From positions 4,526,001 through 4,590,000 of the forward strand of contig NZ_OY762229.1 in NCBI RefSeq assembly GCF_963665355.1: a stretch of 64,000 nucleotides of DNA. The letters run 5' to 3'. Shown here in pieces: positions 10,053 through 64,000 of this stretch; positions within the stretch are counted from its first letter, which is position 1; each line of letters begins with the position of its first letter. The DNA is from an uncultured Desulfobacter sp. GTDB lineage: Bacteria > Desulfobacterota > Desulfobacteria > Desulfobacterales > Desulfobacteraceae. A program made the position numbers and the translations under genes. The notes beneath the pieces are model-generated. The model ran no database searches and was not told where the DNA came from. It saw nothing but the letters and a program-made list of their open reading frames with translations.

Positions 10053-10532
10053 ATGGAACATATTGTAGGTATAGGAGATATGAAAGTCAGTAATCAGGTG
10101 GGCGATACCATTGTGACACCCTCAATTGGTTCCGGTATCGGGCTTGTGATATACGACCCAGAAGCGAGGGTGGGAGGGATACTTCATTATATTCTGACGG
10201 ATTCTTCCATTGATGAAATCAAAGCAAAAGATCAGCCGCTCATGTTTGCTGATACCGGCATATCCACATTATTTCAACAGGCATATTTGCTGGGTGCTGA
10301 AAAAACCAGGATCAGGGTATTTGTTGCGGGCGGTGCCCAAATTATTACCCAGGAGAAGAGATTTAATATTGGACAACTCAATTATACAGCTCTGACGCAA
10401 ATATTGACCCGTGAGAATGTTGCCATCTGGAAACAGGCCGTAGGCGGAAACTTGAACCGGACAGTCAGAATGGACATTGCCACTGGTCATATCTCTTTGA
10501 AAACTTCGGGGCAAGGCGAGGTGAAATTTTGA
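10053..10532 (+). CDS. CheD-like protein lacking the catalytic cysteine
   Basis: The 159-residue sequence is CheD-like throughout: VGIGDMKVSNQVGDTIVTPSIGSGIGLVIYDPEARVGGILHYILTDS, then PLMFADTGISTLFQQAYLLGA and RIRVFVAGGAQI. CheD deamidates glutamines on chemoreceptors using a Cys-His-Thr triad. Here Thr22 and His45 are present, but the cysteine of the usual 'GSC' motif is Gly28. It is therefore probably not a deamidase, and may keep only the binding role CheD has towards CheC or receptors. RBS GAGGTGAT precedes the ATG. Its stop overlaps the HDOD gene start, so the two are translationally coupled. No chemotaxis genes are in the window. Confidence 0.8.
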   Translation: MEHIVGIGDMKVSNQVGDTIVTPSIGSGIGLVIYDPEARVGGILHYILTDSSIDEIKAKDQPLMFADTGISTLFQQAYLLGAEKTRIRVFVAGGAQIITQEKRFNIGQLNYTALTQILTRENVAIWKQAVGGNLNRTVRMDIATGHISLKTSGQGEVKF

Positions 10533-11377
10533 CAAATTTTCAGGAAATGGCCCAGGAAATAAAAAACTTAACGCCCATCCCTGCCGTGACCATGTCTCTT
10601 TTAAAGGTTGTGGAAGATCCCAACAAGACCATGGACGATGTAACCAATATCATCCAGTATGATCCGGCCATCACCGCCGATGTTCTTCGAAGCGCCAATT
10701 CGGCATACTTTGGGTTGAAATACCCTGCTGAAACCATTTCGGACGCAGCCAAGATGCTGGGCACGGACCGGCTTGTGGAGCTTGTCTTGCTGAAGGTGGC
10801 GTCCAAAATAATACAAGGGCCTCTGGACGGATACGGTATGCATGAAGGAGCACTGTGGAAACATTCAGTATCCTCAGCCATCATTGCCAAACAGGTGGCG
10901 GTACAACTCGGATTATCCCATTCGTGCACTATATTTACCGCAGCCCTTCTCAAGGATATCGGTAAAACTGTGATGGATAAATATGTCCAAAACGCATATA
11001 AAAAAATTTACAAACTGGTTATCAATGAAAATTTCAGCTTCATGGAGGCAGAAACGAAAGTAATCGGCGTGAACCACGCAGAACTTGGCGGAATGATGGC
11101 CCAGATATGGAAATTTTCTCCCAAAATGGTAAGGATCATCAATAATCACCATCTCCCCCGGGAAGACATGGTAAAGGACAAAGACACGATAGTAGTCTAC
11201 TTAGCCGACTGTATATGCATGATGATGGGCATGGGAATTGGTGCAGACGGCTTGGCCTACAGATTCCACCATCAGGCCATTGAAAAAATCGGAATTTCAG
11301 CGGATGATATTTTAACCATCATTGTGAACTTCACCCCCCAGATGAAGGAAGTGGAAAAGCTGTTGAAGATGGTCTGA
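10529..11377 (+). CDS. HDOD-domain signalling protein
   Basis: The 282-residue protein is a single HDOD domain: LTPIPAVTMSLLKVVEDPNKTMDDVTNIIQYDPAITADVLRSANSAYFG, then KHSVSSAIIAKQVAVQLGLSHSCTIFTAALLKDIGKTVMDKY and INNHHLPREDMVKD. HDOD proteins are HD-related but usually lack full metal-binding sets and act as regulatory scaffolds in motility, biofilm or stress signalling. The start is a TTG overlapping the CheD-like stop (TTGA), supported by GAGG 7 nt upstream. Coupled to a catalytically dead CheD, it may be the output or partner of that protein. Confidence 0.9.
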   Translation: MTNFQEMAQEIKNLTPIPAVTMSLLKVVEDPNKTMDDVTNIIQYDPAITADVLRSANSAYFGLKYPAETISDAAKMLGTDRLVELVLLKVASKIIQGPLDGYGMHEGALWKHSVSSAIIAKQVAVQLGLSHSCTIFTAALLKDIGKTVMDKYVQNAYKKIYKLVINENFSFMEAETKVIGVNHAELGGMMAQIWKFSPKMVRIINNHHLPREDMVKDKDTIVVYLADCICMMMGMGIGADGLAYRFHHQAIEKIGISADDILTIIVNFTPQMKEVEKLLKMV

Positions 11378-53310: not shown

Positions 53311-55158
53311 ATGGCACAGGCAATTGCAGACAGACGTGACGTCGATTTTGTATTGCATGAACAAATAGGAACTGTTGATCATGAGTTATTTGAGGAGTTT
53401 AACAAAAAAACCATTGACCTGATTGTCTCCGAGGCAAGATCCCTTTCCATCAAGGAGATCCTTCCCACATTCAAAGACGGAGATGAAATCGGCTGCACCC
53501 TTGAAAACGGCAAAGTAACCACCCCGGAGTCTTTTAAACGGGCCTGGAAACTGTTTTGTGAAGGGGAATGGCTGGCCATGTGCGATGATCCGGAAGTGGG
53601 CGGCCAGGGCATGCCCAAAACCGTGGGATGCGCAGCTTTGGAATACATGGTGGGAGCCAATTCCGCTTTTATGCTCTATTACGGCATGACCCACGGTGCG
53701 GCCAAGCTGGTGGAGGCCTTTGGTGACGAGACCCAGAAAAAACTTTACATGAAAAAAATGTTTGCCGGCCAGTGGGGCGGCACCATGCTTTTGACAGAAC
53801 CCGAGGCCGGTTCCGACGTGGGGGCCCTGACCACCACAGCAACCCTGAACGACGACGGCACCTACACGATCCAGGGAACCAAAATTTTCATCTCCGCAGG
53901 CGAACACGATCTTTGCGACAACATCATCCATCCGGTCCTTGCCCGTATCGATGGTGCGCCTGCCGGCACAAAGGGAATCTCCCTGTTTCTTGTCCCCAAG
54001 TACCTGGTCAATGAAGACGGCTCGCTGGGTGAATTCAACAATGTGGCGTGCACGGGCATCGAAGAGAAGATGGGCATTCACGGCAACGCCACCTGCACCT
54101 TGTCTTTGGGAGACAAAGGGCCTTGCATCGGCACCCTTCTTGGCGAAGAAAACAAAGGCATGCCTGAAATGTTTAAGATGATGAACGAAGCCCGGGCCTT
54201 TGTGGGTCTCCAGGGGTTTGCCGTGGCCTCAGCCTCCTATATGAATGCCCTTGATTATGCCAGGACAAGAGTCCAGGGCCGTCATCTCACAGCAGGCAAG
54301 GATGCCACATCCAAAAATGTAACCATCATCAACCACCCGGATGTCAAACGCCAGCTGTTAAACATGAAAGTATACACCGAAGGCATGCGCTCTTTGCACT
54401 ATTACTATGCCAAATGCGAGGACATTGTCCACACCACGGATGATGAGGCGTTAAAAGCTGATACCAAAGCATTGATTGAGGTTCTCACCCCCATTGTCAA
54501 AGGCTATGTCACGGACAAGGCCCTTGAGGTCTGCTCCCACGGCGTCCAGGTCTACGGCGGATATGGATACTGCAAGGAATTTCCGGCAGAGCAGCTCATG
54601 CGCGATTCCAGAATTTTCATGATTTACGAAGGCACCAACGGCATCCAGGCCATGGACCTTCTCGGACGCAAACTGTCCATGAACAAGGGCCAAAGTTTCG
54701 CCTACTTTCTGGATCAGATGAAAAAAACCGTAAAAGAAGCCAAAGAGACCGAAGGCGTTACGGCTCTTGCCGACAAGTTGGAAGCGGCCCTGGAACGGTA
54801 TGAAGTCGTTGCCCATGAAATCGGTGGACGGGCAAAATCTGAACTTGCCCTGAACGCCTATGCCTTTGCCCATCCCTTCCTGGAGATTACCGGAGATATC
54901 GCCTTTGCCTGGATGCATCTGTGGCGTGCCTGCGTTGCCGCGCCCAAACTGGCTAAAAAAGCGGGTACACTTGATCCGGCAACTGTGGCTGCCAAGGCAG
55001 AAAAAAACAAGGATGTCGCCTTTTATGCGGGCGTGATGGCCTCGGCCAGATTTTTTATTAATACCCTTTTGCCAGGATCTTATGGTAAGATGGATGCCAT
55101 CCTTGAAGGGGATTCTTGTGTGGAAGATATAACCAGCGTCTCCTTTGGCTCAAAATAA
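53311..55158 (+). CDS. Acyl-CoA dehydrogenase, long (DmdC-like) type
   Basis: The 615-residue flavoenzyme has the acyl-CoA dehydrogenase core: GTMLLTEPEAGSDVGALTTTA, IQGTKIFISAGEHDL, NACTGIEEKMGIHGNATC-like region (NVACTGIEEKMGIHGNATCTL), and the catalytic glutamate in IFMIYEGTNGIQAMDLLGRKL. An extra C-terminal domain of about 130 residues (LADKLEAALERYEVVAHEIGGRAKSELALNAYAFAHPFLEITGDIAFAWMHLWRA) marks the longer family that includes DmdC. It oxidises an acyl-CoA to the 2-enoyl form, electrons going to ETF. The substrate is unknown. An ATG with AGAGAGG upstream is the start. Downstream it is followed by a palindromic repeat and the phasin-like gene. Confidence 0.92.
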   Translation: MAQAIADRRDVDFVLHEQIGTVDHELFEEFNKKTIDLIVSEARSLSIKEILPTFKDGDEIGCTLENGKVTTPESFKRAWKLFCEGEWLAMCDDPEVGGQGMPKTVGCAALEYMVGANSAFMLYYGMTHGAAKLVEAFGDETQKKLYMKKMFAGQWGGTMLLTEPEAGSDVGALTTTATLNDDGTYTIQGTKIFISAGEHDLCDNIIHPVLARIDGAPAGTKGISLFLVPKYLVNEDGSLGEFNNVACTGIEEKMGIHGNATCTLSLGDKGPCIGTLLGEENKGMPEMFKMMNEARAFVGLQGFAVASASYMNALDYARTRVQGRHLTAGKDATSKNVTIINHPDVKRQLLNMKVYTEGMRSLHYYYAKCEDIVHTTDDEALKADTKALIEVLTPIVKGYVTDKALEVCSHGVQVYGGYGYCKEFPAEQLMRDSRIFMIYEGTNGIQAMDLLGRKLSMNKGQSFAYFLDQMKKTVKEAKETEGVTALADKLEAALERYEVVAHEIGGRAKSELALNAYAFAHPFLEITGDIAFAWMHLWRACVAAPKLAKKAGTLDPATVAAKAEKNKDVAFYAGVMASARFFINTLLPGSYGKMDAILEGDSCVEDITSVSFGSK

Positions 55159-55206
55159 CAGCCATGGGCTGACCTGACATATCATCTGCCAGGCTCAGCC
55201 CACAAC
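55159..55206 (+). repeat. Dispersed palindromic repeat, copy C
   Basis: CAGCCATGGGCTGACCTG, a 12-13 nt centre and CAGGCTCAGCCCACAAC form a stem-loop starting directly at the acyl-CoA dehydrogenase stop. It closely matches copy A (minus strand of 2054-2100) and shares layout with copy B at 8842-8886. It may terminate or stabilise the dehydrogenase transcript. Confidence 0.65.
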
Positions 55207-55271
55207 AAAACATGAAAGTCATCTATCAATTTTTCTGAACTTTCATGAAAAAAATTTGGGAGGAAAAGAAC

Positions 55272-55574
55272 ATGCTTGAAACGATTAAAAACAGTCTGCT
55301 TGCCGGAGTGGGCATGGCACTGCGCTCCAAAAAGGAGATTGAGGCCTTTGCCAGGGAATTTGCCGAACAGTCTGAAATGAACCAGAAAGAGGCCAAGGAC
55401 TTTTTAGAGGAGTGTAAAAACAGGTACGAAGACGCCAAATCCACCCTTGATAAAAAAGTTGAAGAAGTTGTTGAAGCAGTGCTCAAACGCCTGGACCTGC
55501 CCACCCGGGCGGACATTGACGTTTTGAATACCAGAATTGATGAGCTGGCCAAAAAAAATGAAAAGGATGCCTGA
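55272..55574 (+). CDS. Phasin-family (PhaF/PhaI-like) granule-associated protein
   Basis: From the ATG at 55272 (GGGAGGAAAAGAAC upstream) the protein has 100 residues, almost entirely amphipathic helix: LLAGVGMALRSKKEIEAFAREFAEQSEMNQKEAKDFLEECKNRYEDAKSTLDKKVEEVVEAVLKRLDLPTRADIDVLNTRIDELAKK. The pattern, including 'LPTRADIDxLNxRIDEL' at the end, is that of phasin-like proteins that coat polyhydroxyalkanoate granules. It precedes the UbiB kinase, a pairing common in deltaproteobacteria. No PHA synthase gene is in the window. Confidence 0.8.
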   Translation: MLETIKNSLLAGVGMALRSKKEIEAFAREFAEQSEMNQKEAKDFLEECKNRYEDAKSTLDKKVEEVVEAVLKRLDLPTRADIDVLNTRIDELAKKNEKDA

Positions 55575-55600
55575 AGATTCCCAGGCCTTTTGCCCTGCCC

Positions 55601-57280
55601 ATGCTCAGTTTTAAGACCATTTCCAAGGTCACCAGACGGTACCGTCATCTGGTCCGTTACCAGCAGATCATCAGCATCGTTCTCAAATACGGATTTGGGA
55701 ATATTATTGATGCCATGAAGATCAATCACTATCTTGATAAAATTATATTCTCAAAACCCCATCCAAAACTGTCCAGGAACCAGAGGATCAGGATGGTACT
55801 TGAGGAACTTGGGCCTACGTTCATAAAAATGGGCCAGGTGCTCTCTTCAAGGCCGGACCTGATCCCCCTGGACCTGACCCGGGAGCTTGCCGCTCTCCAG
55901 GACAAGGTGCCCAGCTTCGCCTTTGAACAGGTTCGTCACATCATTCAAGACGAATTCAATCAACCCATTGATGAAGTATTTCATACCTTTGAGGAAACAC
56001 CCTTTGCATCGGCCTCCATCGGACAGGTCCACAGGGCTTACTTATCACCCAATGAAGAGGTGGCGGTAAAAATCCAGCGCCCCGGGATCCAGAAAATTGT
56101 TGAGGTGGATCTGGAAATTATCCACTACCTGGCCCAGGTTATGGAAAAAAATCTGGAGGAGATAGCCATATTCCGACCGGTAAAAATCGTAGAAGAGTTT
56201 GCCCAGACCCTGGAGAAGGAACTCGATTACACGGTGGAGGCGGCCAATATGGAACAGATGGCAGACCAGTTTGCCAGGGAGAGGCTCATCCATATTCCCC
56301 AGGTGTACCGATCCCATTCCACACAACGGGTGCTGTGCATGGAATTTATCCGGGGAATCAAGGCCGATGACATTAAGGCCATTGACCGGGCCGGCCTTAA
56401 CAGAAAAAAAATCACCCGCATTGGTGCTGATTTTGTCATGCGGCAAATATTTGAGTTTGGATTTTTCCATGCAGATCCCCATCCGGGAAATATTTTCATC
56501 CTGAAAGACCAGCGCATCTGCATGATTGATTTTGGCATGACCGGATTCGTGGATCTGACCACCCGGGAATTATTCATTGACCTGCTCCAGAGTCTGAACT
56601 CAAAAAACACCCAGAATACAGCCCGTCTGCTGTGCCGCCTCACAGAGATTGATGAACCGGTCAATACGACGTCCCTGGAAAAGGACATCTCTCAATTTTG
56701 TACCGTATTTCTATATAGAAAACTTGAAGAAATTAACCTCAACCGTATGATTCACCAGTTTCTTGAGTTTTGCACCCGGCACGGATTAAGAATCCCGCCG
56801 GACCTGTTTTTAATGATGAAGGCATTTATCAGTATTGAGGGCGTAGCCCGTAGATTAGATCCACAATTTGACATGCTCAGCCATGCCCGGCCCTATGTCA
56901 GGGCAGCCGCATTGAGAAAATATTCAGTGCCCCGGCTCTCACGGGAGTTTGCAGACATAGCCAGGGATACCTTTTCCCTGCTTCAAACCCTGCCCGGTGA
57001 CACCAGCAGCATCATCACCCAGATCAAACAGGGAAAAATAAAGGCCAAGGTAAGCATTGAGGGCCTGGATCGGTTCATGATGACCCAGGATCAGACATCC
57101 AACAGGATCTCCTTTGCCATTATCATTGCCGCCCTGATCCTGGGCTCGGCCATTGTACTCAACTCCCGGATCCCCCCCATGCTCTTCGGGGTATCCATCA
57201 TCGGCATTGCCGGATTTATAATCGCTGCGGTTCTTGGTATCTGGCTTTTAGTGGCTATTATTCGCAGAGGACGACTTTAA
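55601..57280 (+). CDS. AarF/UbiB/ABC1-family atypical kinase
   Basis: The 559-residue protein has the ABC1 kinase signature set: the KxGQ motif FIKMGQVLSSRPDLIPLDLTRELAALQDKVP, the alanine-rich loop PFASASIGQVHRAYL, VKIQRPGI, FHADPHPGNIFIL and MIDFGMTGFV. Two hydrophobic C-terminal helices anchor it in the membrane. UbiB proteins are ATPases or kinases supporting quinone biosynthesis and lipid handling. In this anaerobe the role is probably in menaquinone or lipid homeostasis. It lies 26 bp after the phasin-like gene. Confidence 0.93.
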   Translation: MLSFKTISKVTRRYRHLVRYQQIISIVLKYGFGNIIDAMKINHYLDKIIFSKPHPKLSRNQRIRMVLEELGPTFIKMGQVLSSRPDLIPLDLTRELAALQDKVPSFAFEQVRHIIQDEFNQPIDEVFHTFEETPFASASIGQVHRAYLSPNEEVAVKIQRPGIQKIVEVDLEIIHYLAQVMEKNLEEIAIFRPVKIVEEFAQTLEKELDYTVEAANMEQMADQFARERLIHIPQVYRSHSTQRVLCMEFIRGIKADDIKAIDRAGLNRKKITRIGADFVMRQIFEFGFFHADPHPGNIFILKDQRICMIDFGMTGFVDLTTRELFIDLLQSLNSKNTQNTARLLCRLTEIDEPVNTTSLEKDISQFCTVFLYRKLEEINLNRMIHQFLEFCTRHGLRIPPDLFLMMKAFISIEGVARRLDPQFDMLSHARPYVRAAALRKYSVPRLSREFADIARDTFSLLQTLPGDTSSIITQIKQGKIKAKVSIEGLDRFMMTQDQTSNRISFAIIIAALILGSAIVLNSRIPPMLFGVSIIGIAGFIIAAVLGIWLLVAIIRRGRL

Positions 57281-57406
57281 AAATCAGACCATAGCTGTCC
57301 GTCGTCATGAAATTACGATTACACGCTTGCCAACGTATTCCGGGCTGTGTTACAGTTCTTCGTAATTAAATTCCAAATCAATAAATAAACAAAATTTGAG
57401 GCTAAC

Positions 57407-58381
57407 CTGACTATCCGAATCGGACATTTTCTCAGTATTGACCATCTGATACTGGGCACCGCTTTCCCCCTCTACATGCAACGCAAGGGCAATAGTAGGG
57501 ATATGGATGTGATTTCGTTTGCCATGTGTTCCTGGGAACAAATGGAAAAAGGGTTTGACTGTGGCGATATCAATGCCGCATTTATGGATATTGCCCAGGC
57601 CATGTATCTGTTTGACAAAGGACTCTCCATTGCCATGCTCATGTTCACCCACAGGGCAGGCAGCAGAATCATTGTCCCTGGACAGATTTTGAGACTGGCA
57701 AACCTCAAGGGGAAAAGTGTTTTAATTCCGCATAGATTCAGTATCCAGCATATGCTTGTACACAGACTTCTGACCACAGGGAAACTGGCAATCGCCGGTG
57801 AGAATGACGGCCAAGAATATGTCAGCATTGAAGCCGTCCCCTGCTCCCTGATGCCGGAAATGACAAGTGCTGATCCTGACGGCGATATTGCAGCGTTTAT
57901 CTGTCCTGGTCCCTTTGGTGACACCGAAATTGAAAAAAAAGGTTTCCGCCATCTGCTCATTTCCCGGGATCTGTGGAAAGATCATCCAGGCTCAGTATTT
58001 GTGGTACACCAGGACCTGATTAACACCAAAGACCAAAGCCTGGGGCTGATGGTCAGATGCCTCCTTGACGGTGCCCGGCAGCTTGACCGCTATATGTCAT
58101 CCCCGGACACAGGCGAAAAAGAAATACACGACATACAAAAGGTGGCTGCTGCTTTTTTAAGCCTTTCAGAGGATCAAATCCAAAAATCGCTTAAAACATC
58201 GGGGATTGCCTATACCCCCAAACTTCTGCTACCTGATATGAATATTTTAAATATTGTTCTTGATTATATGAGCACAACCATGCAGGTCATGCCTGCCGGT
58301 GCAGACCTTGATGGATTTGTCAGGCCGGAATTTATTCACTCTGCCTTATCGGAAAATTTAGCCCTTGAAAATAGAAATTGA
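57407..58381 (+). CDS. Cytoplasmic substrate-binding-protein-like protein of an ABC system (non-AUG start)
   Basis: The homologous region begins upstream of the first ATG (57476): LTIRIGHFLSIDHLILGTAFPLYM reads in frame from CTG 57407, which has GAGG 5 nt upstream. A stop lies just before, so a non-AUG start, probably CTG, is implied. The 324-residue protein is an NMT1/SsuA-like SBP fold with no signal peptide, so it should stay in the cytoplasm. The recognisable SBP motif is LWKDHPGSVFVVHQDLI. It aligns with the SBP parts of the Tat-exported protein and the receiver fusion in the same operon. It heads the operon and overlaps the ATPase gene. Confidence 0.7.
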   Translation: MTIRIGHFLSIDHLILGTAFPLYMQRKGNSRDMDVISFAMCSWEQMEKGFDCGDINAAFMDIAQAMYLFDKGLSIAMLMFTHRAGSRIIVPGQILRLANLKGKSVLIPHRFSIQHMLVHRLLTTGKLAIAGENDGQEYVSIEAVPCSLMPEMTSADPDGDIAAFICPGPFGDTEIEKKGFRHLLISRDLWKDHPGSVFVVHQDLINTKDQSLGLMVRCLLDGARQLDRYMSSPDTGEKEIHDIQKVAAAFLSLSEDQIQKSLKTSGIAYTPKLLLPDMNILNIVLDYMSTTMQVMPAGADLDGFVRPEFIHSALSENLALENRN

Positions 58382-59141
58382 AAAAATCAGCAAATTCTAC
58401 GACGGATCTGGAGAAAAACCACACCAGATACTCAAGGATATTTCTTTTTCCATAAATGCCGGGGATTTTGTGATTATTCTGGGGGAATCGGGTTGCGGGA
58501 AAACCACCCTGCTGAATATGCTGGCAGGGCTTGATAATCCAAGCAGCGGCCAGATCCGTGTGGATGGCATACCCATCACCGGCATCCATCCGTCACGTTC
58601 CATGCTGTTCCAGCAACCGGCACTCATTCCCTGGCTCAGCGTCAAGGATAACGTGGCCTATGGATGTAAAATCAGAAAAGACACCCAGGACCTGGAATAC
58701 CGGGTGAACCAGTTTTTAGAAATCATGGGATTGACAGGTGCGGCAGACCAGAAACCCGGCCAGCTCTCTTTGGGCATGGCCCAAAGGGTCTGCCTGGCCA
58801 GGGCCCTCGTGGGACACCCAAAGGTCCTCCTGCTTGACGAACCTTTTGCCTCTTTGGACACATTTACCCAGGCCCATATCCAGGAGGAGCTGGTAAACCT
58901 TTGGATGTCGGAAAATTTCACTGCGGTTTTTGTCACCCACGATATCGACGAAGCCATACGGTTAGGCAATAAAATTGTGGTTCTGGCAGGTTCTCCCGCC
59001 GGCATTGCCGATATCTTTGAAATTGATGTGCCCTACCCCAGAAAACAACACGATCCCGTCATCAAATCGCTGAGGACCGATATCCTCGATCGGTTTAAAA
59101 TTGCGTATTTAGCAAAACGGAGTCTGACAGATGGAATTTAA
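58365..59141 (+). CDS. ABC transporter ATPase (NrtD/SsuB/TauB type) with altered signature
   Basis: This 258-residue ATPase starts at a TTG overlapping the previous gene's stop. Walker A is GESGCGKT (40-47), Walker B VLLLDEP (154-160), the D-loop ASLD and the switch His is in FVTHDIDEA (His192). The signature LSLGMAQR (134 onwards) differs from the usual LSGGMKQR, with Leu in place of the first glycine. This may tune, not abolish, ATP binding. The partner permease and SBP are downstream. Uptake of a small anion or organosulfonate-like ligand would be typical of this subfamily, but the ligand is unknown. Confidence 0.88.
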   Translation: MKIEIEKISKFYDGSGEKPHQILKDISFSINAGDFVIILGESGCGKTTLLNMLAGLDNPSSGQIRVDGIPITGIHPSRSMLFQQPALIPWLSVKDNVAYGCKIRKDTQDLEYRVNQFLEIMGLTGAADQKPGQLSLGMAQRVCLARALVGHPKVLLLDEPFASLDTFTQAHIQEELVNLWMSENFTAVFVTHDIDEAIRLGNKIVVLAGSPAGIADIFEIDVPYPRKQHDPVIKSLRTDILDRFKIAYLAKRSLTDGI

Positions 59142-60333
59142 CCAGACAACGACTGGATGCCACGACGGCATTTCACGGCGAAATTTTTTAAAAAAAGCCT
59201 TTCATACAGCTGGTGCGGCTGCCTGTTCCCCCATGATACTTCCTCGCAGGACAATGGCCCAAAAAAGACCTTTAAGAATTGGTTATCTGCCCATTACAGA
59301 TGCCACCCCCTTGCTTGTTGCATACAGTCTCGGCTACTTTACCCATGAAGGGCTGAATGTGGAACCACCGGTCATGGTGCGGTCATGGAATATCCTGAGT
59401 GAATCATTTCTGACAGGCAAATTTGACCTGGTCCATATGCTTTTCCCCATCCCTGTATGGATGAGATTCAAGCAGAACATCCCTGTCAAGGTACTGGCCT
59501 GGGATCATACCAACGGCAGCGCCGTCACAGTCAGAGCAGATTCCGGCATCAACCGGTTTGCAGATCTGGCAGGCAAACAGGTGGCCGTACCTTCATGGTA
59601 TTCAATGCACAATCTGGTCATGCAGCTGGGTCTTCAGGTGCAAGGACTCGAACCTGTTATCCGTCCTCCGGCGTCCAGGCTTGCGCCCCATGAGGTGAAT
59701 CTATTTACCCTGCCCCCCCCGGACATGCCCCAGGCGCTTTTGGGTAGAAAAATAGACGCATTTATCGTAGCAGATCCTTTTAATGCCCTTGCCCAGGAAA
59801 AATTTTCAGCAAAAATAATGCGATATTCAGGAGATATTTGGAAAAATCACCCATGCTGTGTTATCGTTGTTTATGAACATCTGATCCAACAATATCCGGA
59901 CATGGTTCAAAAGGCTGTAAACGCCATTGTAAAAGCCCAGGCGTGGTGTTTGCAAAATCCCCAGGAAACTGCCCACCTGCTCAGCAAGGAGGGCAAAGGA
60001 TTTCTTCCCGTTAATCAATCCGTTCTTGACAGGGTTTTTGGTGCCATTCCCGAAAAAGAACTGGTACATCCCCAGTGGCATGTGGAAAGAATCGGCTTTC
60101 AGCCTTTTCCTTTTCCGTCTGCCACCCGTTTTATTCTGGAACAGATGAAAAAAACCAGGTTTGAAGGCAATACGGATTTTCTTTCAGCCCTTGATACAAA
60201 TACTGCGGCGGCACAGATAGTTGACGATTCCTTTGTCAGAAAAGCCCTTGACGATATGGGAGGCATGAAAGGATTTTGTCATTGCGATATGAACGATACA
60301 TTTACCAGGGAAGAACTTGTTGAAATCAACTGA
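59131..60333 (+). CDS. Tat-exported substrate-binding protein (NrtA/SsuA type)
   Basis: The 400-residue protein starts with a perfect Tat motif SRRNFLK at residues 15-21, then a hydrophobic segment and a possible signal-peptidase or lipobox Cys (AAACS). The mature SBP begins LRIGYLPITDATPLLVAYSLGYFTHEGLNVEPPVMVRSWNI, then LAGKQVAVPSWYSMHNLVMQLGLQVQG and IWKNHPCCVIVVYEHLIQQYP. It binds the ligand in the periplasm and delivers it to the permease. Tat export suggests folding or a cofactor before transport. It overlaps the ATPase gene by 11 nt and the permease by 17 nt. Confidence 0.88.
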   Translation: MEFNQTTTGCHDGISRRNFLKKAFHTAGAAACSPMILPRRTMAQKRPLRIGYLPITDATPLLVAYSLGYFTHEGLNVEPPVMVRSWNILSESFLTGKFDLVHMLFPIPVWMRFKQNIPVKVLAWDHTNGSAVTVRADSGINRFADLAGKQVAVPSWYSMHNLVMQLGLQVQGLEPVIRPPASRLAPHEVNLFTLPPPDMPQALLGRKIDAFIVADPFNALAQEKFSAKIMRYSGDIWKNHPCCVIVVYEHLIQQYPDMVQKAVNAIVKAQAWCLQNPQETAHLLSKEGKGFLPVNQSVLDRVFGAIPEKELVHPQWHVERIGFQPFPFPSATRFILEQMKKTRFEGNTDFLSALDTNTAAAQIVDDSFVRKALDDMGGMKGFCHCDMNDTFTREELVEIN

Positions 60334-61156
60334 AAACAATGTCTGTGAAAGAACTGTTCAGGTCGGTCTGTCACCATTTTTCATCCGGATGTGGTCGGGC
60401 TGGAAAGATGAGCTGGCCGGACTTGTCCTGTTTGCCTGCGTCTGGGCAGCAGCCACGCAGTTTATCTTCAGTCGGCCCGAACTTTCCCATTTTAGAGGAT
60501 TTCTCCCCGGCCCCACAATAGCAGCCCTGGTAGAAGGATTTCAAAATCCCAGATTCTGGTTATCTGTTTTTGCAAGCCTGAGAAGAATTGTTGTGGGGAT
60601 TGGCATATCAGCGGCCATAGGGCTTCCGTTGGGTGTAATAATCGGATTTTTTACACGTCTTCGCAAGTTGACGTATTCGCCGATTCAATTCGTAAGAATG
60701 ATCAGTCCTTTGTCATGGATGCCCATTGCACTGCTTTTGTTTACAAGCTTTGAATCTGCTGTTCATTTTTTGATTGTAATGGCGACAATTTGCCCTATAA
60801 TACTTAACACAGCCATCGGTGTCATGGATATTAATCCCCAGTGGATCAAAATGGCTTTGAATCAGGGTGCCAATAACGTTCAACTCATTCAAACGATAGT
60901 TATTCCATATTCCATCCCCCACATGATGACCAGCATCAGACTGGCACTGGGGATTGCATGGATAGTTTTGGTCCCGGCGGAATTTCTAGGGGTATCATCG
61001 GGCCTGGGATATCTGATTAATGATGCCAGAGATGCCATGGAGTACGACAGACTTATGGCCATAATAATCGCCATAGGGATACTGGGATTTATACTCGACA
61101 GAGTTTTTCAAAAATTGCAGCACAGGTTCACCTGGTCATGGGCCGATGATGTTTAA
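60317..61156 (+). CDS. ABC transporter permease (NrtB/SsuC/TauC type)
   Basis: The 279-residue inner-membrane permease starts at TTG (AGGGAAG just upstream) inside the previous gene. It has about six hydrophobic segments and the binding-protein-dependent permease signature (EAA loop) MALNQGANNVQLIQTIVIPYSIPHMMTSIRLALGIAWIVLVPAEFLGVSSGLGYLI. It forms the channel with the ATPase encoded two genes upstream. Confidence 0.9.
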   Translation: MLKSTENNVCERTVQVGLSPFFIRMWSGWKDELAGLVLFACVWAAATQFIFSRPELSHFRGFLPGPTIAALVEGFQNPRFWLSVFASLRRIVVGIGISAAIGLPLGVIIGFFTRLRKLTYSPIQFVRMISPLSWMPIALLLFTSFESAVHFLIVMATICPIILNTAIGVMDINPQWIKMALNQGANNVQLIQTIVIPYSIPHMMTSIRLALGIAWIVLVPAEFLGVSSGLGYLINDARDAMEYDRLMAIIIAIGILGFILDRVFQKLQHRFTWSWADDV

Positions 61157-61214
61157 AAAATTATGATTTTAAATATAAATAAATAAAACCTTTACAGGAC
61201 ATAAGGAGCATTTT

Positions 61215-62588
61215 ATGGCGGTAGACCCGAATATTAAAATTGTTGTGGCAGATGATTCAGGCACCATGCGGATAATGTTCAAACAAATCCTGGAGAAAGC
61301 AGGATTTTCCAACCTTGTCATGGCGGTTAACGGTGCAGACGGCATTGAAAAAGTAAAAGCCGAAAAACCGGATCTTGTTATATCCGACTGGAACATGCCC
61401 ACGCTGGACGGCCTTGGGTTTCTCAAAAAACTAAGGGCCAGCGAAGAGTTCAAGGATCTGCCCTTTATTATGGCCACAGCCCAGGCTGACATGGGCCAGC
61501 AGAAAGTCATCCTTGAAGCTGGCGGTAATGCCCATTGCCCTAAACCGTTTAACGAGCAGGAAATAACAAAAGCAATCATAACGGCCTTCTCCGGGGGGGT
61601 AAAAAAACAGCGGGTAACAAAGCAGAGAAGCATTGTCGGCGGTCGTGTCGAGCTCAATGTGGCCCACATCCAGATCACCGATCACCTGGCTTTAGGTGCT
61701 CTCAAACACCGGATAGCCCAGGGCGATGTGGAACCCCAGTTCTTTGACTTAAGCACCAGCCTGATGGGAGGATGGAATCCCATACAGGAAGGCTTAGAAA
61801 GTGGGGAAATAGACTGTGCCTTTGTTCTGGCACCCATTGCCATGGATCTGTTTGCCTACGAGTCCCCTATTCAACTGGTTCTGTTTGCCCATAAAAACGG
61901 TTCCACATTTGTGCGCTCCAGGCACTATGACCACAGGTTCGACTCTTTGCAAAGCTTTTATAAATACAAGGTTGTGGATATTCCCCACAAAATGTCCGTT
62001 CACCACATGCTTGCCCATCAATTTCTAAAAGAACTGGGGTTGAAACCCGGAGTCCCTGGCGAAAAAGCCATTAATGTGCGTTTTGAGGTGGTTCCCCCCA
62101 TCAAGATGCCCGGAATTATGAAAGAAAATGAAGATGTGGGTGGCTTCATGGTGGCAGAGCCTGTGGCCACCAAAGCCATCAAGGGGGAAATCGGCAACCT
62201 GGAGTTCTATTCAGCCGCACGCTGGGAAAATCATCCATGCTGTATTGTGGCCATGCAAAAAGACTTTATCCAGAATCACCCAGAAGCGGTCCAGGAGTTT
62301 GTCACCCTGCTGGTGGAAACCGGTGAATACATTGAAAATGACAAGGCCAGAGCTGCCGACATTGCCGTAAAATTTTTGGATCCCGAAGGCAAAATGGGCT
62401 TAAATCCCCAGGTGCTTCAAAATGTATTCTCCCAGCCCATGGCCATCCGCTGGGACGGACTTTATCCGGAAGCAGCAGATCTGGATAAAATCCAAAAGTA
62501 CATGCATGATGTTATGGAAATCGGCAAAATTATTGACCTTGAAAAATTTATCGAACCTCATTTTGCCAAAATTGCATTCAATCGTTAG
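61215..62588 (+). CDS. Receiver-SBP fusion: CheY-type response-regulator domain joined to a cytoplasmic substrate-binding-like domain
   Basis: The 457-residue protein begins with a receiver domain (1-128) with all key residues: acidic pair D13-D14 in VADDSG, phosphoacceptor D58 in LVISDWNMP, T88 in IMATAQ and K110 in CPKPFN. A basic linker (VKKQRVTKQRSIVGG) leads to an SBP-like domain from about residue 144: RVELNVAHIQITDHLALGALKHRI ... GEIDCAFVLAPIAMDLFAYESPIQLVLFAHK ... WENHPCCIVAMQKDFIQNHPEAVQEFV. There is no signal peptide, so the sensor part is cytoplasmic. It follows the transporter genes by 58 bp with its own ribosome site (AAGGAG). I know of no described family with this exact fusion. 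Confidence 0.82.
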   Translation: MAVDPNIKIVVADDSGTMRIMFKQILEKAGFSNLVMAVNGADGIEKVKAEKPDLVISDWNMPTLDGLGFLKKLRASEEFKDLPFIMATAQADMGQQKVILEAGGNAHCPKPFNEQEITKAIITAFSGGVKKQRVTKQRSIVGGRVELNVAHIQITDHLALGALKHRIAQGDVEPQFFDLSTSLMGGWNPIQEGLESGEIDCAFVLAPIAMDLFAYESPIQLVLFAHKNGSTFVRSRHYDHRFDSLQSFYKYKVVDIPHKMSVHHMLAHQFLKELGLKPGVPGEKAINVRFEVVPPIKMPGIMKENEDVGGFMVAEPVATKAIKGEIGNLEFYSAARWENHPCCIVAMQKDFIQNHPEAVQEFVTLLVETGEYIENDKARAADIAVKFLDPEGKMGLNPQVLQNVFSQPMAIRWDGLYPEAADLDKIQKYMHDVMEIGKIIDLEKFIEPHFAKIAFNR

Positions 62589-62603
62589 TCAAAGGAGCTA
62601 TGC

Positions 62604-63248
62604 ATGAGAATTACAGATCCCCAGGTTATTGAGAACGGAGAAAAGGACCTCATTGCATCGGTCCAAAGAGATCTTGACCTTGATGCGGTCAGGGATCTGC
62701 TTAAGGATCGGCTGGCCGCAACAGTGCTGTCTCCTAAAGGCGGCCAGATCGTCGTACATGACAATGACGTGGCGTTCAGGCTCGACTATGAAATCAATCT
62801 GAATGGCAGCCTGCTGTTCAACCGAAACGGCGATCTGATTGAAGTCACTGATAACAAGCCCTGGGAACAAGAACCGAATGATGAAGATGAAGCACTGGAA
62901 TCGGATCTGAATCATGACCTTCAGGATACAGAGAACCAGAATACGGATAACCACGACAATGAGATACAAGATGCTGAACCCGCGCTTGATGAAATGGAAG
63001 ACCTTGAAAATGAGCCTGCATTTGATCAGGATGACTTAGACATCCTTAAAGCAGATGATGATGAGCTTATTGACGGGTTGCCCCAGGACAATGACGTGGA
63101 AAACATAAGCACGGATGAAATTCCGGATATTGCCTTCAACGACGAGGATGAAGACGAGGACAGGGATACCAGCCAGGATATGGGTGATGACGATATCAGT
63201 ACCATTCTTCAGGAAAGCCGTGATTTCTGGGAAAAGAAAAAAGAATAA
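62604..63248 (+). CDS. Highly acidic protein of unknown function
   Basis: The 214-residue protein has an N-terminal folded part (about 1-90: DPQVIENGEKDLIASVQRDLDLDAVRDLLKDRLAATVLSPKGGQIVVHDNDVAFRLDYEINLNGSLLFNRNGDLIEVTD). The rest is almost pure Asp/Glu/Asn (segments such as EDEDEDRDTSQDMGDDD), ending in LQESRDFWEKKKE. It is 15 bp downstream of the receiver fusion and likely the last gene of the operon. The acidic tail could mimic nucleic acid or bind metal or a partner; nothing identifies it. Confidence 0.7.
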   Translation: MRITDPQVIENGEKDLIASVQRDLDLDAVRDLLKDRLAATVLSPKGGQIVVHDNDVAFRLDYEINLNGSLLFNRNGDLIEVTDNKPWEQEPNDEDEALESDLNHDLQDTENQNTDNHDNEIQDAEPALDEMEDLENEPAFDQDDLDILKADDDELIDGLPQDNDVENISTDEIPDIAFNDEDEDEDRDTSQDMGDDDISTILQESRDFWEKKKE

Positions 63249-63815
63249 TGCCAGGTGTACTTAGTTCCTTATTCCATCCCCCCCCCCAAGACTATCAGCT
63301 AATATTGGGATACGAGGACATCTGTATTTTTTAAGGCAGGCCGTATCCCAATTAGGCAGGATCTCATATATAGTCAATGCACAGGCCTTTTGCATTTTTC
63401 ATGCAGTTTATTTTTTACCCTCCCTTTTTTACTTTTTGATCAATTCAAGCAATTCATTGCCAGAAGAATAACCAGAGTAGAATTGCAGCATAATGGCCGC
63501 AGTCTGGTTAATTATACCAGTGCTCCCAAGCGTCCGGCGGTGTATCGCTGGAAGCCTCAGTGTCATCAAGGGTCTTTTAGCCATCGGGCTTCGTAAAATG
63601 CGTTATCATTCTTGCTCATCCCACATGACACAAATTACAATGAATAACTTTATTAAAAATAAAGTTATTTTAAATAAAGTTATTCATTAAATACCTTCCA
63701 TTTAATTCAATTAAACAAAAATATTCTATTTTAATTTATCTTTTTGAGTGTTATTACCTGTACCGTTTTAAGGTGTTCATAAATTGACAACAATATTCTC
63801 TGAGGAGTGCATATC
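63249..63815. other. Gene-free region before the FMN/glutamate-synthase gene
   Basis: This 567-bp gap contains a run of ten C at 63278-63287 and the inverted-repeat cluster at 63639-63688. Plus-strand ORFs at 63390-63596 and 63493-63690 lack ribosome sites and recognisable sequence and are probably not genes. Confidence 0.45.
63639..63688. promoter_or_regulatory. Tripartite AT-rich inverted repeat with alternative hairpins
   Basis: The left arm at 63639-63654 (AATGAATAACTTTATT) is fully complementary to the right arm 63673-63688. Its inner 12 bases also pair perfectly with a middle copy AATAAAGTTATT at 63658-63669 with a 3-nt loop. Two mutually exclusive hairpins are therefore possible. It lies about 130 bp upstream of the last gene and may be an operator cluster or leader switch. 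Confidence 0.4.
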
Positions 63816-64000
63816 ATGGAGATGAGATTTTCAAAGGGAAACGATGCGTTAGGAACCAAAAACCGGGGAGATTCTTGCGAGTCAAGCCTGTGCACCCTGT
63901 GCCGGGCGGATTGTGTGGGGAAATGTGAAACATGGCTGTCCAGTATGGTGGGCAGAAAATTACTCTATCCCCGAAGTTTTGGTCTGGTGACCGCCGGGGC
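63816..64000 (+). CDS. FMN-binding glutamate-synthase-family protein, N-terminal fragment (cut by window edge)
   Basis: Only 61 codons are visible. The ATG at 63816 has GAGGAG 8 nt upstream. The N-terminus CTLCRADCVGKCETWLSSMVGRKLLYPRSFGLVTAG has a cysteine-rich lead and the LLYPR-FG-TAG stretch typical of the glutamate-synthase-like FMN oxidoreductases of sulfate reducers. The reaction is not known for this subfamily. Identity is tentative because most of the gene is outside the window. Confidence 0.6.
   Translation, partial: MEMRFSKGNDALGTKNRGDSCESSLCTLCRADCVGKCETWLSSMVGRKLLYPRSFGLVTAG

Follow-up and report, generated by a model that had tools for sequence, protein, structure and literature searches.

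In classical chemotaxis external ligands are sensed via membrane receptors, and cytosolic chemoreceptors such as TlpD carry an MCP signalling domain. Proteins resembling the solute-binding protein (SBP) NrtA are also known from inside the cell: the predicted cytoplasmic NrtA-like protein NasS is reported to form a complex with NasT, the bearer of a CheY-like receiver (PMC3795266), and the cytosolic NrtA-like C-terminal domain of CmpC is thought to be regulatory (PMC11349869). Here we analyzed a stretch of 64,000 nucleotides (the window) from a sulfate reducer, an uncultured Desulfobacter sp., corresponding to positions 4526001–4590000 of the host contig (host genome 5.6 Mb). It contains an importer operon whose fifth gene joins a receiver domain (REC) and a cytosolic SBP domain in one chain (the REC–SBP fusion). 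We propose, with a probability of about 0.58, that this fusion is a soluble chemosensory protein of the CheV-like kind, which reads a ligand in the cytoplasm and in this operon is paired with an importer. For the fusion group a chemosensory role is likely; as a whole, the group appears designed to relay nutrient levels inside the cell to the chemotaxis machinery.

The operon comprises six plus-strand open reading frames (ORFs), and the ORF list together with the Pfam matches confirms what an earlier sequence-only reading had described, namely six closely packed, partly overlapping genes forming an ATP-binding cassette (ABC) importer operon. Its features are as follows (E-values in brackets).

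57407–58381, plus strand: ORF1 (SBPcyt), a signal-less, fast-evolving NMT1_2 protein (PF13379, 1.1e-15; also tree and alignment columns)
58365–59141, plus strand: ABC ATPase of 258 amino acids (aa), a separate protein resembling NrtC/D, SaoA and TauB (PF00005, 2.9e-35)
59131–60333, plus strand: SBPtat, the importer SBP, exported by the twin-arginine (Tat) route (PF13379, 7.7e-46; TIGR01409)
60317–61156, plus strand: ABC permease (PF00528, 7.1e-19)
61215–62588, plus strand: gene five, the REC–SBP fusion (Response_reg and NMT1_2)
61215–61589, plus strand: CheY-type receiver of the fusion, residues 1–125 (PF00072, 2.6e-23)
61614–62588, plus strand: SBPrec, the cytosolic SBP domain of the fusion, residues ~134–457 (PF13379, 1.8e-24; AlphaFold2 model; Foldseek)
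62604–63248, plus strand: ORF6, an acidic protein with conserved ends, below the cut-off for all Pfam families

Judged by its sequence, the receiver of the fusion is of the CheY type. The phosphorylation residues, already noted as intact in the sequence-only reading, are invariant (D14, D58, T88 and K110 in 81/81 aligned fusions), and position 13 is D in 33 and E in 48 of them; together they supply the acidic pair and the equivalents of Asp-57, Thr-87 and Lys-109 of CheY. In a profile search of receiver structures CheY was the best match (135.7 bits vs. 88.3 for PhoB), and 45 of 120 aligned positions are identical in E. coli CheY. The NCBIfam CheY equivalog was likewise the top match, but at 80 bits against a cut-off of 189. 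The closest receiver paralogue in the host genome (87.9 bits; the second receiver gave 62.3) is a 136-aa REC protein at 1612 kb, which adjoins a CheX gene; a flagellar rod gene is located at a distance of ~6 kb. Genes for CheA, MCP, CheW and CheD are present in other clusters of this genome. In the window fusion Pfam revealed no ANTAR, DNA-binding or MCP signalling (PF00015) domain. It should be mentioned that a CheD and HDOD gene pair is located elsewhere in the window (10053–11377), and that the genome contains three such pairs among five CheD matches.

Many relatives of the fusion carry chemotaxis domains in the same chain. Homologous loci that were fetched are given below as L-numbers (L011 is the window locus) and surveyed genomes as G-numbers. 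Among seven long homologues scanned with Pfam, six contained CheW, arranged as REC–SBP–CheW (L042, L044, L045, L048, L059) or (REC–SBP)2–CheW (L046), while the seventh (L043) has a longer tail without Pfam match. L129 and L223 continue after REC–SBP with a CheA core (H-kinase_dim, HATPase_c, CheW). Of 395 genomes drawn evenly from the phylum, 20 gave a match, and all nine loci beyond the window that were fetched from these 20 (L257–L265) encode REC–SBP–CheW. A quick tree of 81 fusions requires 11 changes of the tail labels and four of the importer label; importer-linked fusions fall into two separate clades, that of the window and a REC–SBP–CheW clade (L117/L047/L131/L048), in which L047:2174–3574 was labelled importer-linked only through a contig shared with an importer ATPase. 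In four genomes (L044, L124, L133, L263) DUF169 genes adjoin the REC–SBP–CheW genes.

The fusion is widespread in the class, where 91 of 335 genomes gave a match at E ≤ 1e-60 and 88 of them a match covering both domains; G115, G301 and G304 were left out of the 88 because their match is confined to the binding domain, and the 88 include one match split across two contigs (G037) and one beginning at residue 85 (G340). By hand count, 48 of 70 genomes of the window's family possess the fusion. The nearest named isolates carrying it are D. latus and D. vibrioformis (92% in the best segment). No match covering 80% of the fusion was found in 72,556 plasmid records, and one named match outside the phylum is a 3.8 kb contig of a Spirochaetales metagenome-assembled genome (L209), possibly mis-binned. 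Among the top-ranked titles and abstract beginnings of the open-access literature no receiver–SBP or chemotaxis–SBP fusion was described, and the text of a paper on Geobacter che genes (PMC2577667) does not contain the terms 'periplasmic binding', 'substrate-binding' or 'NMT1'. As far as the open-access literature searched goes, the fusion group is undescribed.

The distribution of the fusion follows that of CheA (PF02895, E ≤ 0.001), which was detected in 241/335 class genomes, 239 of them above its cut-off. All 88 genomes with a both-domain match contain CheA, vs. 153 of the 247 others (compared by hand), and the three dropped genomes are CheA-positive as well. Within the window's family (n = 70) we found the fusion in 48 genomes, the importer SBP in 49 and CheA in 58, and none of the 12 CheA-less genomes has either the fusion or the importer. 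The fusion is present in 48 of the 49 importer-bearing genomes; in the exception, G040, the contig stops just after the permease (L057). A CheD-like gene was revealed in 39 of the 70, comprising 33/48 genomes with the fusion and 6/22 without it, one of these six being CheA-less.

We studied the gene neighbourhoods of 120 distinct fusions (L011, L042–L061, L090–L149, L167–L228; eight are >98% identical to another), with the short loci L012–L041 and L062–L089 and the unfetched matches of the class survey outside the count. They were divided by SBP identity to the window's protein into classes A (≥65%), B (53–65%) and C (<53%). Neighbour and tail labels were assigned by BLAST and are lower bounds (the CheW of L046 found by Pfam was missed by BLAST), and some contigs end early. 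In class A (n = 54) the importer triad of ATPase, permease and exported SBP accompanies 46 fusions, an ORF1-type or other lone SBP 44, and a CheD-like neighbour within 8 kb 28. The reference for this CheD-like gene came from such a locus (L055) and is a true CheD by Pfam. Where at least 5 kb was available on both sides (n = 34), the triad was found in 31 cases and the remaining three fusions (L052, L200, L205) are located among che genes, while 17 arbitrary 17-kb regions of related genomes, taken as a control, contained the importer in none and che genes in three. The arrangement is thus real and conserved among close relatives.

More distant fusions are organized in a different way. In class C (n = 50) the triad was found three times and any importer gene five times, whereas 32 fusions have their own CheW or CheA and 38 have either these or a che neighbour. 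For classes B and C together (n = 66) the corresponding counts are three triads, five loci with any importer part, 33 fusions with a C-terminal CheW or CheA core and 39 with own or neighbouring che functions. The sequence-only reading had asked whether receiver–SBP fusions always sit beside an NrtABC-like operon, and had held that fusions lacking transporter neighbours in most genomes would speak against it: the association stands for close homologues (46/54), and the 3/66 among distant ones comes close to that adverse outcome.

The SBP domain of the fusion is modelled by AlphaFold2 with pLDDT 92.7 and pTM 0.90. Foldseek ranked S. aureus 3un6 first (its title in the Foldseek result mentions zinc), followed by CmpBCD, NrtBCD, the CmpC regulatory domain, NrtA, TauA and SsuA; the same fold is seen in the enzymes Thi5 and DszB. 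A quick tree of 60 SBPs separates two sets, one made up of the fusion SBPs, the ORF1-type proteins and the stand-alone cytosolic SBPs (support 97), the other of the Tat SBPs with their plasmid-borne relatives (support 95); a long-branch warning (TauA placed with the cytosolic set) leaves the root unsure, the split itself being independent of it. We therefore rejected the idea that the cytosolic SBPs had recently been copied from the Tat SBP of the operon. Columns common to fusion and Tat SBPs are W187, H226, G229, S230, P257, S261, H263, P295, P316, W337, H340, P341, C342 and C343, whereas H151, H157, D211 and H258 of the fusion correspond to Y, A, W and S or Y, respectively, in the Tat SBPs. 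ORF1-type proteins have the longest branches within the cytosolic set, and in the three of the window's genus that were aligned GS replaces CC (HPCC to HPGS).

These comparisons bear on several claims of the sequence-only reading. Its signal-less SBP-like proteins are supported, being ORF1 and the fusion, and its motifs are present as given (DHPGS in ORF1, NHPCC in both the Tat SBP and the fusion). Yet HPCC also occurs in a plasmid-borne CmpA/NrtA-family SBP of Methylobacterium aquaticum and in a Methylocystis importer SBP, so it was rejected as a mark of this operon and is a feature of a wider SBP group. The single tree that it proposed for the three SBP domains places ORF1 with the fusion and the Tat SBP apart. 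Its suggestion that the same ligand is sensed inside and outside the cell is weakened, because the tree separates the cytosolic from the exported SBPs, because conserved columns differ between the two, and because ORF1 is fast-evolving and no longer has CC; we keep it as an inference. As a whole, that reading is partly supported, and it missed both the NasS–NasT precedent and the chemotaxis link (CheY-type receiver, CheW/CheA fusions, CheD-like neighbour, CheA co-occurrence).

If the fusion is a chemosensory protein, CheA would phosphorylate its CheY-type receiver, and the internal level of a small ligand, bound by the cytoplasmic domain, would tune receiver phosphorylation or partner binding and thereby might alter swimming. 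The relatives bearing CheW or CheA would be adaptors of the CheV type (or kinases) into which a ligand sensor is built. CheW is absent from the window clade, where the operon would supply an importer for a ligand that may be identical or related, ORF1 as a cytosolic SBP-like companion, and ORF6, whose C-terminal peptide may dock on the CheY-type receiver in the manner of CheZ. A bolder version, in which an undescribed soluble chemosensory class places an intracellular SBP domain in CheY-, CheV- or CheA-like chains, the cell takes its direction from the intracellular pool of a nutrient that the co-encoded importer brings in, and ORF6 is a dedicated CheZ-like docking partner, is put forward tentatively, as somewhat doubtful.

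Several observations weigh against a chemosensory role. The window fusion has no CheW or CheA domain detectable by Pfam and so lacks the joining of CheW to a receiver that characterizes CheV, and no che gene is located within ~7 kb on either side of it (L011). The CheD-like companion is missing from the host genome and from 13/17 genomes of its genus, host included. Without this gene, che neighbours occur in 6/54 class A loci (6/34 with full flanks), which is about the control rate (3/17); therefore the case for the window clade lies in the CheD-like gene, the copies within che clusters, the receiver type and the co-occurrence with CheA. In class B (n = 16) the importer was never found and a che neighbour once, and in class C che neighbours apart from the fused domains were found in 15/50 loci (8/21 with full flanks). 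Some relatives end in HATPase_c_2 and STAS (L136, L145, L146, L149) or have a histidine kinase with DUF3369 before REC–SBP (L142), and therefore the output need not be chemotaxis. Ten of the 58 CheA-positive family genomes lack the fusion, and the Fisher p-values for co-occurrence (class 1.6e-15; family 6e-8; genus g14 2e-4, 11/0 vs. 2/8) take no account of relatedness or genome reduction and serve for description only.

The close pairing with the importer could instead point to a transport regulator, in which the REC–SBP protein binds the ATPase or permease on the cytoplasmic side and gates import at high ligand levels, after the model of the NrtC/CmpC C-terminal domain, phosphorylation being a second input. 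The 46/54 class A fusions in an operon with the importer, the 48/49 importer-bearing family genomes that have the fusion, and the CmpC regulatory domain, a top fold match of SBPrec, agree with this. Such a regulator is nevertheless hard to reconcile with the triad standing beside just 3/66 more distant fusions, half of which are joined to CheW or CheA, and the absence of the importer from all 12 CheA-less family genomes is odd for a plain nutrient importer; we regard this explanation as unlikely, if worth keeping in view. An SBP domain serving as an enzyme or a dead scaffold and not as a sensor seems improbable to us: Thi5 and DszB are among its fold matches and several His and Cys residues of the fusion are invariant, but the closest fold matches are solute-binding proteins, and strong conservation of the SBP columns in the fusion, whereas ORF1 drifts, argues against a scaffold. 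Control of gene expression of the NasS–NasT type, with a receiver-bearing regulator as the target of a cytosolic NrtA-like sensor, has a described counterpart in the NasS–NasT complex. We consider it the least probable explanation, given that the fusion has no ANTAR or DNA-binding domain, that the longer relatives scanned bear CheW, CheA, STAS or kinase parts instead of RNA- or DNA-binding ones, and that Rfam gave no match at the gathering score in window positions 55000–64000. On the latter result a riboswitch that would have revealed the ligand was rejected as well, and promoter-like sites were dropped as evidence (12 observed vs. 10.3 expected).

ORF6 was found in 51/54 class A loci and consists of a conserved N-terminal region of ~85 aa, a disordered acidic linker and a conserved C-terminal helix DDIxxILxESRxFW, whose strict pattern is present in 33/40 proteins, the window copy being one residue off. 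Its AlphaFold2 model (mean pLDDT 62.5, pTM 0.25) is confident only in the N-terminal region and the C-terminal helix (195–213). Since the likeness of this helix to the C-terminus of E. coli CheZ (QVDDLLDSLGF) was judged by eye, we describe ORF6 as a conserved companion with an apparently CheZ-like end, and its docking role is a guess.

As to the remaining parts of the operon, the ATPase gene overlaps ORF1, the Tat SBP gene overlaps the ATPase gene and the permease gene overlaps the Tat SBP gene. The reading frame of ORF1 closes just upstream; with no ATG, GTG or TTG there, the domain begins at CTG 57407–57409, an apparent start preceded by a GAGG motif, and starting at the first ATG (57476) would remove the beginning of the domain. 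Among 15 relatives whose start region was compared, the CTG is retained in seven (L100, L101, L102, L167, L169, L170, L171), ATG or GTG is found at or near its site in L055, L057, L091, L092, L099 and L103, and no usual start codon was seen in L172 and L173. The scores for NMT1_2, the NrtA/SsuA-like family (PF13379; gathering score 24.7), are 58.6 bits for ORF1, 157.4 for the Tat SBP and 87.3 for the fusion, and the Tat signal, which the sequence-only reading had assigned to the third gene, was recovered by TIGR01409 (18.0 bits vs. a cut-off of 16.7). Stand-alone cytosolic SBPs at L009:5077–6024 and L054:3879–4817 each adjoin a protein of 437–562 aa, that of L009 showing acidic repeats of the DDLSxLV kind and no match to Pfam at 1e-5; a second cytosolic SBP paralogue of the host genome (L010:2111–5951) has a hybrid-cluster (Prismane) gene and a multihaem cytochrome in its vicinity.

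The co-encoded ATPase, permease and exported SBP identify a NitT/TauT importer. The operon misses every cut-off of the NCBIfam nitrate, taurine and Sao models, and nitrate was rejected as a ligand inferred from family models, the ATPase scoring 216.2 bits with TIGR01184 (cut-off 291.8) and TIGR01183 giving 122.8 (cut-off 209.05). The Tat SBP has full-length plasmid-borne relatives (43.9–47.3% among the 25 matches listed), and importers of the same kind are located on plasmids of Methylocystis, Marinobacter, Rhodobacteraceae, Pseudosulfitobacter and Synechococcus (L249–L252, L256). In other bacteria genes for OsmC, acyl-CoA-dehydrogenase-like, sulfurtransferase, FAD-oxidoreductase or cyanase products come after this importer, or cysK is located nearby. 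These linkages hint at a sulfur-containing ligand, which we take as a weak lead.

If the bolder version holds, steering would follow uptake and not the outside concentration. A widespread soluble family in which a binding pocket is joined to CheY, CheW or CheA would link an imported metabolite to motility by a direct route open to testing, and would make some genes annotated as 'ABC transporter substrate-binding' in sulfate reducers candidate chemosensors.

Comparison with known systems revealed partial likeness to several of them. Cytosolic chemoreceptors such as TlpD share chemosensing inside the cell, whereas the window fusion lacks their MCP signalling domain. The operon resembles NitT/TauT importers (NrtABCD, TauABC, SaoXPA) in its ATPase, permease and SBP, and differs from them in its cut-off scores and in the addition of the fusion and ORF6. 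NrtC and CmpC have an intracellular NrtA-like regulatory domain tied to an importer (for CmpC, PMC11349869), which is joined there to the ATPase, whereas in the window it is joined to a CheY-type receiver and the ATPase is separate. CheV combines a soluble, phosphorylatable receiver with CheW in one protein (PMC12691637), as do many relatives of the fusion; in these the SBP domain stands between REC and CheW, and the window protein has no CheW. NasS–NasT (PMC3795266), with a cytosolic NrtA-like protein paired with a protein containing a CheY-like receiver, is the closest precedent for such a sensor acting on such a receiver protein, but it consists of two proteins with an ANTAR RNA-binding output, whereas the window fusion is a single chain whose relatives have chemotaxis partners.

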